Assembly (NCBI GenBank): GCA_025358925.1
Contig: JANYHT010000002.1
Coordinates: 1 to 64,000, forward strand
DNA length: 64,000 bases
From: Gemmatimonadaceae bacterium
Lineage (GTDB): Bacteria > Gemmatimonadota > Gemmatimonadetes > Gemmatimonadales > Gemmatimonadaceae
Reading direction: 5' to 3'
Below the pieces are notes generated by a model that saw only the letters and a program-made list of their open reading frames with translations, searched no databases and was not told the DNA's origin. A program made the position numbers and the translations under genes. Below are positions 46,459 through 51,962 of the stretch, in pieces (the first letter of the stretch is position 1; each line of letters starts with the position of its first letter).

Positions 46459-48183
46459 TTGCTTGATCGATTAGATCCGGCAACCGTCTCGCTTGAGCAA
46501 GCGGTCGCCGGGCAGTATGTGCTTGAGAAAGAGATTGGCCGCGGCGGTATGGGCATCGTGTTTTTGGCGGATGACGTGCAGCTCGAGCGTTCGGTCGCGA
46601 TAAAAACGCTGCCGATACATCTCGCGGCAGACGCGCAGGTCCGCAGCCGGTTTTTACGTGAGGCGCGGACGGCCGGGGCGCTTTCGCACCCGAACATCGT
46701 GCCGATTTACGTGGCCGCCGAGCGTGATGGGGTGGTGTATTTCGTCATGCGATACATCGCTGGCGAGTCACTCGCCGACCGCATCGCTCGGCTCGGCACC
46801 GTCAATGCGCGTGATACGGTCGTGTTGCTCCGACAACTTGCATCGGCCTTAAGTCACGCGCATGCGCATGGCGTGGTGCATCGCGACATCAAGGCCGAGA
46901 ATGTGTTGCTGGAAGGCGAATCGTTGCGGGCGATGCTGACTGATTTTGGTATTGCGCGGCTCGCAGAAACGAAAGCGCTCACGGCAACGGGTACGGTGCT
47001 TGGGACCGTGCAGTATATGAGTCCGGAGCAGGTGAATGGAGACACGTTGGATGGACGCAGCGATCTGTATTCGCTTGGCGTGTTGGCCTTTCACATGCTC
47101 ACGGGCTCGTTTCCGTTTGAGCGGAGTAGTGCGAGTGCGATCCTTGTGGCGCATGTGAATGCGAAACCGCCGCGCATGCAGGACGTTGCGCCCAGTGCTC
47201 CCGCAGCATTGTGCGCCATTGTTGATCGGCTGTTGCTCAAGTCGCGCGATGAACGCTTCGCTGATGGTGCCGCTGTGCAGCGCGCGTTGGATGCCGTGCC
47301 GTCGATTGTAGAAGGTGCGGTGCACGCAGTTGTCGCCGCCGCCGCGCCGATCGATGAACCGCGGACTGTGATGTCGAGCGACGACGCACAACAAGTGTGG
47401 GCGCGCGCTGCCGAACTGCAGGCAAACACTGGTGTGCTCACGCCACCGCCTGCGTTCACGCCGCGTGACGATGCTGGTGCGCTCGTCACCACGGGGTACG
47501 ACACCGCACTGGTGCGTAACGCAGCGGTGGACGCGGGGATCGATGCGAAGTACGTGGAGCGCGCGCTAGCCGAGCGCGCGTCTGCAGTACCGGCGACCAT
47601 CGTTCCCGGTCCGCAGATGCAGAAGAAAATCAATCCAGTGCTCGGCGCTCGCGTCAAGCTTTACTATGAAACTGTGATTGAAGGCGAGCTACGCGAGGAT
47701 GGGTTTGAAGAGATTGCTGACGAAGTGCGTCGACTGTTGGGCGAAATGGTGACGGTCAGTGCGGTGGGGCGCACGCTGACCATTACCACAGCGCTCGCGG
47801 CGGCACGTCAAGGCACGAATATGCGCCGACTGCAAGTCAATGTGAGTTCGCGCAACGGTCGCACGACACTTCGCGGTAATGAAGATCTTGGTCAGCAGGC
47901 AATGAGTTGGTTTGTCGGACTCACCATGGGCGGTGGATTTACTGGTGGCACTGCGGTTTTGGGGGCAATCATGGGCACCACACACAATCCGCTGTTGGGG
48001 TTCGGCGCGATGAGCGCGACCTTGATCAGCGCGTTCTTAACCGCACGATTCATGTTTCGTCGAACATCGCTCAAACGCGATGTGGAATTGCGCGACGTGA
48101 TGCAAAGATTAGTGGCGAAAGCGCGCGAGTATGTGGTGCAGCCGGTGGCGTTGCCGCGGGTTATTTCTGACCCACCCATTTGA
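46459..48183 (+). CDS. Membrane Ser/Thr protein kinase
   Basis: A 574-residue Hanks-type kinase. Residues 20-280 are the kinase domain: glycine loop GRGGMG, Lys49 in VAIKT, catalytic HRDIKAEN at 141-148, DFG at 162-164 and SPEQ for APE. A middle region without clear family follows. Hydrophobic segments near 490-540 form one hairpin or two TM helices. The start is TTG at 46459; no ATG lies before the kinase core. The last residues (ISDPPI) are read from the antisense of an ABC permease relic, so the C-terminus overlaps that relic. Confidence 0.88.
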   Translation: MLDRLDPATVSLEQAVAGQYVLEKEIGRGGMGIVFLADDVQLERSVAIKTLPIHLAADAQVRSRFLREARTAGALSHPNIVPIYVAAERDGVVYFVMRYIAGESLADRIARLGTVNARDTVVLLRQLASALSHAHAHGVVHRDIKAENVLLEGESLRAMLTDFGIARLAETKALTATGTVLGTVQYMSPEQVNGDTLDGRSDLYSLGVLAFHMLTGSFPFERSSASAILVAHVNAKPPRMQDVAPSAPAALCAIVDRLLLKSRDERFADGAAVQRALDAVPSIVEGAVHAVVAAAAPIDEPRTVMSSDDAQQVWARAAELQANTGVLTPPPAFTPRDDAGALVTTGYDTALVRNAAVDAGIDAKYVERALAERASAVPATIVPGPQMQKKINPVLGARVKLYYETVIEGELREDGFEEIADEVRRLLGEMVTVSAVGRTLTITTALAAARQGTNMRRLQVNVSSRNGRTTLRGNEDLGQQAMSWFVGLTMGGGFTGGTAVLGAIMGTTHNPLLGFGAMSATLISAFLTARFMFRRTSLKRDVELRDVMQRLVAKAREYVVQPVALPRVISDPPI

Positions 48184-48220
48184 ATACTTCGCGAATGGAA
48201 GGAGTGGTGCCGTAGATCGG
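48161..48220 (-). pseudogene. C-terminal relic of a second ABC permease, cut at the IS30 end
   Basis: The minus strand encodes PIYGTTPSIREVFKWVGQK and a TAA stop. The intact permease 1.5 kb away ends LMYGKRPSIREVFKWVGQK, also with TAA. The last 13 residues are identical and the DNA differs at two of the last 43 bases. The relic ends where the IS30 element begins. The remainder of this paralogue is absent from both sides of the element, so it has been deleted. Confidence 0.8.
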
Positions 48221-48272
48221 TAATCCCCCCCCACGAATCAGCGGTCGGTGAATTCAACCGATGCGTGCAACA
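48219..48272 (+). repeat. IS30 left inverted repeat
   Basis: Starts GGTAATCCCC and includes the 26-bp inner block. It matches the right end in inverse orientation except for a spacer of differing length. Confidence 0.88.
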
Positions 48273-48310
48273 GAGGTTGATTTGTTGCATGCGTACGGGA
48301 GAAAACAGCG

Positions 48311-49465
48311 ATGGCGACGAGAGAGGAAGTGCAGATGCGACCGGCGGAGCACGAGGCGGTGTGGCAGCAGTATCGAGCAGGGGCCACGTGCCCGATGATC
48401 AGCCGCGCTCTTGGTAAACATGTGAGCACGATTTACTCGATCGTGTCCTCGAATGGCGGCATCACTCCCGCTCGTCGCCGACGCGACGTCCGCAGTTTGA
48501 CGGCGGTGGAGCGCGAGATGATTTCGCGCGGTGTCGCAGCCGGCGAGTCGGTGCGTGCGATGGCGCGCGATCTAGGACGAGCGCCATCGACGATCAGTCG
48601 CGAGATTGCCCGTAACGGTGGGCGCCGGTACTATCGAGCGCTTAACGCGGAGACGCAGGCGTGGCAACGCGCACGACGACCCAAGTCCTCGCGTTTCACG
48701 CAGTCACCGATGTTGCGTGCCGCAGTGCATGCGAAGCTGCGCGTGAACTGGTCACCGGAACAGATCAGCGGCTGGTTACGACGGGAGTATCCGGAGGTGA
48801 GCGACATGCACGTGTCGCACGAAACGATTTATCGCAGCCTGTTTATCCAGACGCGTGGCGCGCTGAAACGCGAGCTGACTCAGCATTTGCGTACGCGTCG
48901 TCAGATGCGACGGAGTCAGCGTGCCGGTCAGCTGAGTGAGAGCCGGATTGTAGACGCGGTCTCTATTGCGCTACGACCGCCGACTGTCGAGGACCGCGCA
49001 ATCCCTGGACATTGGGAAGGCGATCTCGTTTCGGGGGCCAAGCAGTCGCACATCGCAACGCTCGTCGAACGCACATCGCGCTACGTGCATCTCGTGCAGG
49101 TGAATGGCAAAGACACCGCCTCCGTCGTCAACGCGCTCATTCGTGAAGTGCAGCGTTTGCCTGCCGGTCTCATGGCATCACTCACGTGGGATCGCGGCAT
49201 GGAGCTGGCCCAGCACGCACGATTCACCGTCGCCACAGACGCGGCGGTCTATTTCTGTGATCCGCATAGTCCATGGCAACGAGGCACGAATGAGAACACG
49301 AATGGCCTGCTCCGCCAGTACTTCCCCGATGGCATCGATCTCTCGATCTTCGATCAACACGCGCTCGACGCGGTCGCGCTGCAACTGAACACGCGTCCCA
49401 GAAAGACCCTCGACTTTCTCACGCCCGCGCACATACTTGCAGCAGGTGTTGCACGCATCGGTTGA
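48311..49465 (+). CDS. IS30 family transposase
   Basis: A 384-residue DDE transposase of the IS30 family. The N-terminal helix-turn-helix regions include RAMARDLGRAPSTISREIARN. The catalytic core shows GHWEGDLVSG (Asp), LTWDRGMELAQH (Asp) and GTNENTNGLLRQYFPDG (Glu). The start ATG has GGGAG about 9 bases upstream. The frame is uninterrupted, so the element may still be active. The stop lies inside the right inverted repeat. Confidence 0.95.
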   Translation: MATREEVQMRPAEHEAVWQQYRAGATCPMISRALGKHVSTIYSIVSSNGGITPARRRRDVRSLTAVEREMISRGVAAGESVRAMARDLGRAPSTISREIARNGGRRYYRALNAETQAWQRARRPKSSRFTQSPMLRAAVHAKLRVNWSPEQISGWLRREYPEVSDMHVSHETIYRSLFIQTRGALKRELTQHLRTRRQMRRSQRAGQLSESRIVDAVSIALRPPTVEDRAIPGHWEGDLVSGAKQSHIATLVERTSRYVHLVQVNGKDTASVVNALIREVQRLPAGLMASLTWDRGMELAQHARFTVATDAAVYFCDPHSPWQRGTNENTNGLLRQYFPDGIDLSIFDQHALDAVALQLNTRPRKTLDFLTPAHILAAGVARIG

Positions 49466-49496
49466 ATTCACCACCACTCAAAGTGGGGGGATTACC
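49447..49496 (-). repeat. IS30 right inverted repeat
   Basis: The reverse complement starts GGTAATCCCCCC and contains the same inner 26-bp block as the left end. It overlaps the end of the transposase gene. Confidence 0.88.
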
Positions 49497-49720
49497 CAAT
49501 ACACAGCCGCTCAAGTTGGGGCTACACGCAGCATCAAATTTCCATTGCAACCGCTGCCAAACAGCGAACTTACTGCGTTGAAGCCCGTTGCCCCTCATGC
49601 GATGGCAGCGGATAACAGCATAGTGCGTGCGCGATCTGCCACGGAGGTACACATGGAACCTACACAGGTGCGAACGAAACAGCATTCTGTCATTCTCGCA
49701 CCCTGCATTTCAGCACATGT
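49497..49720. other. Unassigned 224-bp segment between IS30 and permease gene
   Basis: No supported gene is seen. It does not encode the missing part of the permease paralogue in any minus-strand frame I read. The start (CCGCTCAAGTTGGGG) weakly resembles the inner flank of the IS30 right end, so it could be a fragment of another element. Confidence 0.4.
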
Positions 49721-51004
49721 TTATTTCTGACCCACCCACTTGAATACTTCGCGAATGGATGGACGCTTGCCGTACATCAAAAGTCCAACACGATAAATTC
49801 GCCCCGCTATCCACACGGTGGCACAGGCGCCCAGTGCAACGCTGAGGAGGGCGATAGTGATGTCGAGCGGCGGCACAGGAGCGACCGTCATACGTAGTGG
49901 CATCACGATGGGGGCGCTGAACGGCAGCATGCTGAGAATGCGCGACAACTTTCCGTCGGGTTGCAACAGTACGTTCTGCACAAACATGACACTGGTCACG
50001 AGCAGCAAAACGACCGGCATTTGCGCTTGCTGTGCTTCTTGTTCGCTGTTGACAGTTGCGCCCACTGCGGCGAACAGTCCCGCATAAAACATGAAACCCA
50101 AGACAAAAAATGCGAGCAGCACGGCACCCGTCCCCATTGAAATATCAGGCATGTTGAGCGGCATCTGCGCCGCACCAAACTTCGCGAGAATGGGTTCGCG
50201 CACTTTGTACATCAGGACGCCCATCGACAGCCAGAGCACGAGCTGCGTGAGTCCGACACTACCCACACCAATCACTTTTCCGGCCAGCAAGCGCGTGGCG
50301 GGCAAACTCGAAATGACAACCTCAGCGACGCGCGTTTGTTTTTCTTCCAGCACACCACGCAACACATTCAAACCATAGATAAAGATCGTCATATACAGCA
50401 ACATCGCGACCGCGAGCCCGAAAAAGAAATTGATCTGGCCCGAACCGCCGCGACCCTGCTTGGTGAGACGTTCGGTCGTCACGTTGATATTGAGATCGGT
50501 AATTTGTCGTCCGACGTCCGGATCAATACCGCTTTTTTCCATGCGAATAGTCATGACTTCATGCTGCACCGCGCGCTCGAGTTTCTGCATGTCAAATAGC
50601 GCCGTGGTATTGCTGCCCGCATAACGCGCGCGTTGTCCAGCGAGCGTTGATTCATCGAGCACCAAATATCCCTTCACCCGCTCCGCTATTACGTCTTTCG
50701 TTGCCAGCGACTCAGCGGCAGCGATGCCGCTCTGCGCGACCACGGCAATCTTGGCGGTGCTGGTGCCTCCAGAAATACCGCCGCTGATGCGCGACGCCAC
50801 GCGATCGCCGAGCCCAGCGCCGGTCGCATCAATGATGACGATGTTGGCCGCGTCGGCCGCACCCTTGTCGCGTGACGCGATAAGTGCGGGGAGAAACATG
50901 AGCAGTCCGAAAAACAGCGGACCAAAGAGTGTCGCAATGAGGAACCAGCGCGAGCGTACACGCTCAACGTATTCGCGGCGGATAACCGCCATCAGCTTAC
51001 CCAT
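49721..51004 (-). CDS. ABC-2 type permease, NatB-like
   Basis: A 427-residue ABC exporter permease. An N-terminal TM helix (RWFLIATLFGPLFFGLLMFLP in two adjoining pieces, residues 19-40) is followed by a large extracytoplasmic domain to about residue 190. Five TM helices fill the C-terminal half, including GLNVLRGVLEEKQTRVAEVV. This is the NatB/YhaP layout. The ATG overlaps the stop of the ATPase gene by 8 bp. Substrates of the family include Na+, drugs or peptides. A relic of a close paralogue lies beyond the IS30 element. Confidence 0.88.
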   Translation of the reverse strand: MGKLMAVIRREYVERVRSRWFLIATLFGPLFFGLLMFLPALIASRDKGAADAANIVIIDATGAGLGDRVASRISGGISGGTSTAKIAVVAQSGIAAAESLATKDVIAERVKGYLVLDESTLAGQRARYAGSNTTALFDMQKLERAVQHEVMTIRMEKSGIDPDVGRQITDLNINVTTERLTKQGRGGSGQINFFFGLAVAMLLYMTIFIYGLNVLRGVLEEKQTRVAEVVISSLPATRLLAGKVIGVGSVGLTQLVLWLSMGVLMYKVREPILAKFGAAQMPLNMPDISMGTGAVLLAFFVLGFMFYAGLFAAVGATVNSEQEAQQAQMPVVLLLVTSVMFVQNVLLQPDGKLSRILSMLPFSAPIVMPLRMTVAPVPPLDITIALLSVALGACATVWIAGRIYRVGLLMYGKRPSIREVFKWVGQK

Positions 51005-51962
51005 GACCGCTCATCCCCGCTTCAACGTGAGTGGCACCAACTTTCTCGAGAAAGATTTTGTGCAGCGACGGACGTACGAGTTCGAAGCGTTCGATGGTTG
51101 CACCAGCCGTCATCAATGCCGCGAGCAATTCTTGCGCAACGGCACCAGGTGCAAGTTCGACTTCGAGAAACCGATTGGAGTCGTCCACTTTATTCACGAA
51201 CCGCACATCGTGCAGCACGGCTTGCACCGCTGCTGATGGTGCGCCGTCGAGACCAAGTGCCACCATGCGTGCACCGTGTGCCTCGCGAACCTCAGCCACG
51301 CCACCGTCAAGCACTTTTTGACCGCGCGCAATGATGCACACCGAATCACACATGCGTTCGGCATTCTCCATGATGTGCGTGCTGAAAATGACCGTTCGAT
51401 TCTGCTTCTTGAGATCGACGACGGTGTCTTTCAGCGCCTGCGCATTGATCGGATCGAGACCACTAAACGGCTCGTCGAGAATCACGAGTTCGGGTTCATG
51501 CAGCAGCGCTCCGATGAATTGCACTTTTTGCTGCATGCCGCGAGAAAGCTCGTCGACTTTGGCGTTGCCCCAATCTTCGCTGCCGTTTTTCAGCTGCAGG
51601 CGTTCCAGCCACATCTCGATGCGTCGGTCGAGCTCTTTGCCGCCCAATCCCTTCAGCTCACCGAGAAACCGGAGCACGCGTTTGACCTGCATTTTTCGAT
51701 AGAGGCCACGTTCTTCCGGCAGATAGCCGATGCGATCAACAAGCGCGGGGTCGGAGTGTGGAACGCCGAGTACGCGAATGGTGCCTTCGTCGGGGGAGAT
51801 GATATTGAGCAGCATACGAATCGTCGTCGTCTTGCCCGCGCCGTTCGGCCCAAGCAGGCCGTACACAGCGCCGCGCGGCACGGTGAGCGAGAGCGATTGC
51901 ACCGCGACGTGATGATCGTATCTTTTAACGATGTCCTGAATTTCGATGGCAGGTGTGGTCAT
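50997..51962 (-). CDS. ABC transporter ATP-binding protein, NatA-like
   Basis: A 321-residue ATPase. Walker A is GPNGAGKT at 38-45, the signature LSRGMQQ at 139-145 and Walker B LVILDEP at 159-165. A C-terminal extension after residue 235 is typical of NatA-type exporters. It energises the permease encoded directly downstream, whose gene it overlaps. It is divergent from the molybdate transporter gene. Confidence 0.92.
   Translation of the reverse strand: MTTPAIEIQDIVKRYDHHVAVQSLSLTVPRGAVYGLLGPNGAGKTTTIRMLLNIISPDEGTIRVLGVPHSDPALVDRIGYLPEERGLYRKMQVKRVLRFLGELKGLGGKELDRRIEMWLERLQLKNGSEDWGNAKVDELSRGMQQKVQFIGALLHEPELVILDEPFSGLDPINAQALKDTVVDLKKQNRTVIFSTHIMENAERMCDSVCIIARGQKVLDGGVAEVREAHGARMVALGLDGAPSAAVQAVLHDVRFVNKVDDSNRFLEVELAPGAVAQELLAALMTAGATIERFELVRPSLHKIFLEKVGATHVEAGMSGHG

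Follow-up and report, generated by a model that had tools for sequence, protein, structure and literature searches.

Insertion sequence (IS) copies without a target duplication have precedents both at duplication junctions and at deletions (PMC11708052). The closest described case is SBW25-Dup-IS of Pseudomonas fluorescens, in which an IS of about 1.3 kb lies between two duplicated copies and no target duplication is present (PMC11708052). IS30, which normally makes a 2-bp target duplication, generates deletions and cointegrates (PMC9333248). Here we describe a locus in a Gemmatimonadaceae MAG, G000 (a 72-contig assembly), which is the one MAG of its lineage available for this study, together with one close relative, G018. 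We refer to the whole stretch of DNA that was analysed, 64,000 nucleotides long, as the window.

As in SBW25-Dup-IS, an IS in the window lacks a target duplication and has the same sequence to its left and right; the relatives examined here carry this sequence in single copy. The two systems differ in that SBW25-Dup-IS involves IS481 and a duplication of 59,943 bp, with no further DNA described next to the IS, whereas the window has an IS30 element, a visible repeat of 58 bp and 224 bp of additional DNA on one side. On a small scale, the locus is a natural case of a duplication junction marked by an IS copy that lacks a target duplication.

The IS30 element at the kinase-permease junction

The junction is bounded on the left by a Ser/Thr protein kinase gene on the plus strand (46459-48183; Pkinase, PF00069) and on the right by the intact minus-strand gene of an ABC-2 family permease of 427 aa (49721-51004; ABC2_membrane_3, PF12698), whose start is overlapped by an ABC transporter ATPase gene on the same strand (50997-51962; PF00005 and DrrA1-3_C). 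In G018, the closest relative, the corresponding kinase and permease are 88% and 97% identical, respectively, at the amino acid level.

Between these genes lies an intact gene for an IS30-family transposase of 384 aa (48311-49465, plus strand). Its product matched the transpos_IS30 profile (NF033563) with 282.9 bits against a cut-off of 80 (E=3e-84), identifying it as an IS30-type DDE transposase, and the gene is present in single copy in the G000 assembly. Two sets of perfect inverted repeats surround it. The inner set, of 26 bp, has the sequence GGTGAATTCAACCGATGCGTGCAACA (48247-48272 and 49447-49472) and is of the IS30 type, matching the element ends in relatives. In the relatives, canonical IS30 ends begin with GG(T/C)GGATTCAACC and the elements measure 1229-1232 bp; the equivalent in the window is an element of 1226 bp (48247-49472, plus strand). 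The outer set, of 12 bp, corresponds to GGTAATCCCCCC (48219-48230 and 49485-49496). It belongs to two arms located outside the canonical ends: a left arm formed by GGTAATCCCCCC and a spacer (48219-48246, plus strand), which resembles the termini of IS3-family (ISKpn20/ISAs22-like) elements, and a right arm with GGTAATCCCCCC inverted (49473-49496, minus strand). Thus, the element is like other IS30-family insertion sequences in its transposase and its inner repeats, but differs from them in these arms and in the lack of a 2-bp target duplication.

An earlier note on this DNA had described the IS30 element as having no target duplication. In support of this, duplications of 2, 3 or 4 bp were found neither at the outer ends (GATC on the left, CAAT on the right) nor at the canonical IS30 ends (GGTC on the left, ACCA on the right). 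The absence of the 2-bp duplication fits a rearranged copy and leaves the IS30-family membership of the element intact. Note that homologues of the IS in four relatives (G106, G008, G118 and G197) had no obvious target duplications at their flanks, as far as their uncertain boundaries allow.

To the right of the element, 224 bp (49497-49720) separate it from the permease stop codon. This segment has a G+C content of 54%, compared to 59% for the window, and searches of the own genome, 179 genomes of the family, plasmids, Pfam (two overlapping frames) and Rfam returned no match. Folding it as DNA also revealed nothing. The segment has no similarity to the permease or to the rest of the locus, and neither a remainder of a second gene nor its flank was found there. 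The DNA right of the IS is thus not permease, in line with the earlier note, which described the rest of the gene as missing.

The duplicated permease tail and the junction in relatives

The 58 bp immediately to the left of the IS (48161-48218, minus strand) and the 3' end of the intact permease gene (49721-49778, minus strand) form a direct repeat with 51 identical positions and 7 mismatches. By comparison, when 300 random 58-mers of the window were sampled, their second-best match had on average 31 identical positions, with a maximum of 45. The repeat starts exactly at the permease stop codon and adjoins the element at 48218/48219, so that the permease homology ends at the first base of the inverted repeat. 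Read on the minus strand, the left tail encodes 18 residues, IYGTTPSIREVFKWVGQK, followed by a stop, while the counterpart in the intact gene is MYGKRPSIREVFKWVGQK, also followed by a stop. The sequence therefore bears out what had been reported for this tail: a permease end with its TAA stop lies directly left of the IS30 end, its last 13 residues equal those of the intact permease, and the first 43 bp differ at two positions only (48179 and 48200; 41/43 equal).

The left tail also has a second role. The TGA stop codon of the kinase gene (48181-48183) and the last kinase codons fall within it, and its first part doubles as the coding sequence of the kinase C-terminus. Because the left tail encodes the end of the kinase and the right tail completes the permease, both functional genes have been kept.

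We compared the left tail, the right tail and the tail of G018. Changes unique to one sequence numbered seven in the left tail, three in G018 and none in the right tail, and the left tail shared three states with the right tail against G018. Since the left tail has seven changes of its own and the right tail none, the intact gene is the conserved copy. Four of the left-tail changes are contiguous (48204-48207) and convert YGKRPS/T, a motif conserved in most of the permease tails compared among relatives, into YGTTPS, an alteration that would be consistent with loss of function. In the permease frame, each of the three isolated changes affects a third codon position, weakly suggesting that the left tail may have diverged as coding DNA, i.e. 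inside a longer second permease.

The earlier note had proposed looking for two tandem permeases without the IS in close relatives. No such arrangement was seen. At the G018 junction there is a single permease, whose stop falls within the 3' end of the orthologous kinase gene, and the IS, the spare tail and the 224 bp are all absent. The outgroup G007 also has one permease facing the kinase, with the two stops 23 bp apart, and G025 and G020 have one permease each, facing the kinase. In the family as a whole, the permease was present in 159 of 179 genomes, nearly all with one match; among the matches listed, the second matches of the few genomes with two were fragments or unlinked copies, and no close tandem pair was found. 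The opposite outcome proposed in that note, relatives with one permease and the same short tail but no IS30, was not observed either, as the relatives have no short tail. The duplication of the tail is therefore specific to this lineage. Moreover, the single permease in G018, G007, G025, G020 and the family indicates that the single-copy junction is ancestral and that the duplicated tail, the IS and the 224 bp are derived. Since the permease of G018 stops within the kinase 3' end, the left tail in the window occupies the ancestral position of the sole permease 3' end.

Left and right of the insertion, synteny with G018 and divergence from it were similar. At third positions, the divergence was 0.274 for the kinase, 0.226 for the permease and 0.196 for the ATPase, most neighbours ranging from 0.20 to 0.33. 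Both flanks thus look vertically inherited. A distant donor as the source of the G000 permease was also considered, and was rejected because the divergence of this gene at third positions falls within the range seen for its neighbours. The tail-to-tail overlap of kinase and permease seen in G018 exists likewise between the kinase and the left tail in the window (48161-48183) and is absent in G007; this overlap may be recent in origin.

Origin of the rearrangement

Two features, the absence of a target duplication and a repeat that reaches precisely to the IS boundary, speak for an IS-associated rearrangement rather than for a simple insertion. We propose that this lineage probably gained the IS30 element, the 224 bp and a duplicate of the permease 3' end in a Dup-IS-Dup rearrangement without target duplication. 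The ancestor would have had a single permease whose 3' end overlapped that of the kinase tail to tail, as in G018 today. In the lineage of the window, IS30 and 224 bp of foreign-looking DNA would then have been inserted at the kinase-permease junction, leaving the permease 3' end on both sides: 58 bp beside the kinase up to the IS, and the complete 3' end on the intact permease. Later, a deletion beside the IS could have removed more of the second copy. The order of these events and the extent of any former second permease are what we infer from this arrangement. Some features are less easily accommodated. A repeat beginning exactly at the permease stop codon is unexpected for a random duplication breakpoint, the third-position changes of the left tail hint weakly at a longer coding second permease, and the comparison draws on one close relative and one MAG of the lineage.

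The earlier note had attributed the locus to a tandem pair of permeases cut to one by an IS-linked deletion. The IS-linked part of this proposal is likely, since permease homology up to the exact IS end, the missing target duplication and the non-permease DNA right of the IS fit either an IS-linked rearrangement or an adjacent deletion. An inherited tandem pair, however, is not likely to be the source, because the relatives are single-copy and the 224 bp are unmatched, and reduction of such a pair to one is not the simplest account. A modified version appears possible, although we regard it only tentatively: a full second permease would have arisen in this lineage, IS30 would have inserted near its end, and an adjacent deletion would have removed the rest of it, stopping 224 bp short of the intact gene. 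The permease homology and the right-hand junction do both stop exactly at the IS end, as occurs in transposase-started deletions (PMC11708052, PMC9333248), and the single changes of the left tail are at third codon positions. On the other hand, no relative has a tandem pair, and no further piece of a second permease copy was found elsewhere in the G000 genome. In addition, a simple tandem duplication predicts DNA of the locus to the left of the intact permease's tail, yet nothing upstream in the locus matches the 224 bp, which disfavours such a duplication. The present data fit two accounts, and published cases exist for each: a larger second copy, transient and specific to this lineage, may have been truncated by a deletion adjacent to the IS, or the tail may be all that was ever duplicated during the IS-associated insertion.

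Another possibility, which we find unlikely, is that IS30 broke a single permease near its 3' end, after which homologous DNA from another cell repaired the gene, recombining within the permease and being joined illegitimately to the end of the IS; the 224 bp would then stem from the region that follows the gene in the donor. Homology-facilitated illegitimate recombination has been described (PMC3240628), and this scenario would account for the start of the repeat, as a stop codon is the natural end of homology to a donor gene. The difference between the left and right tails, 4 of 19 third positions, is also close to the interspecies permease divergence of 0.226. However, the divergence of the permease and the ATPase from G018 is not clearly unusual, and for illegitimate joining to have hit the precise end of the IS would be a coincidence, unless the transposase made the join.

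We consider it highly improbable that the assembly joined the kinase, tail and IS allele of one strain to the 224 bp and permease allele of another. A 72-contig assembly does carry strain-level uncertainty, and two other contigs of G000 (C34 and C7) start inside IS elements, but the single-copy IS30 transposase gene provides no second copy for a repeat-driven misjoin, and divergence from G018 is similar on both flanks. Duplication of the attachment site of an integrative element was rejected as a leading idea, as there is no integrase or cargo between the repeats and the repeat stops at the IS end.

The Dup-IS-Dup rearrangement proposed here, being IS-associated and lineage-specific, would be a fairly ordinary event. 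The locus shows why a gene fragment beside an IS calls for a comparison with relatives before it is taken as a sign of a deleted second gene. Here, the fragment sits where the permease 3' end was ancestrally, and it also serves as the end of the coding sequence of a kinase gene in convergent orientation.

Termini shared by IS30 and IS3 elements

The least expected part of the locus is the sharing of termini between IS30 and IS3 elements. The 12-bp GGTAATCCCCCC also terminates IS3-family ISKpn20/ISAs22-like elements on Citrobacter and Aeromonas plasmids (L113, L115), where a 4-bp duplication (ATCG, CCGT) lies immediately beyond it; on these plasmids it is therefore the true end of the IS3 element. 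Thus, the window element and the ISKpn20/ISAs22-like elements have an identical 12-bp terminal inverted repeat, but in the latter the transposase is of the IS3 family and target duplications of 4 bp are present, whereas the former encodes an IS30 transposase and has no duplication. A scan of viral contigs for the pattern of shared IS30/IS3 ends found nothing, and a literature search with GGTAATCCCC produced unrelated matches only.

Within G000 itself, GGTAATCCCCCC was present on IS3-like copies at the starts of contigs C34 (L101, 134-169) and C7 (L107, about 134-169). The C34 copy and the left end of the IS30 element in the window were equal at 36 of 38 terminal bases, while the C7 copy had a different spacer. 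The same 12 bp were present on the IS30 copy of G106 (L102), within a near-perfect palindrome. In G000 and G106, the IS30 transposase gene sits in a unit with the outer termini of an unrelated IS3-family group. This unit could be a chimera, or a short IS3 derivative, itself non-autonomous, that IS30 enters repeatedly, and it might be moved by either transposase, a reading that we think very doubtful.

In two relatives, G106 (L102, 808-831 and 2078-2101) and G029 (L072), the IS30 copies are flanked by long palindromic arms of differing sequence, suggesting that these copies may have inserted into palindrome centres, which recalls IS insertion into REP sequences (PMC1525189). Finally, some of the plasmid matches to the IS3 end, at the loci L112 and L114 that were left out of the comparison, adjoin plant-pathogen effector genes.
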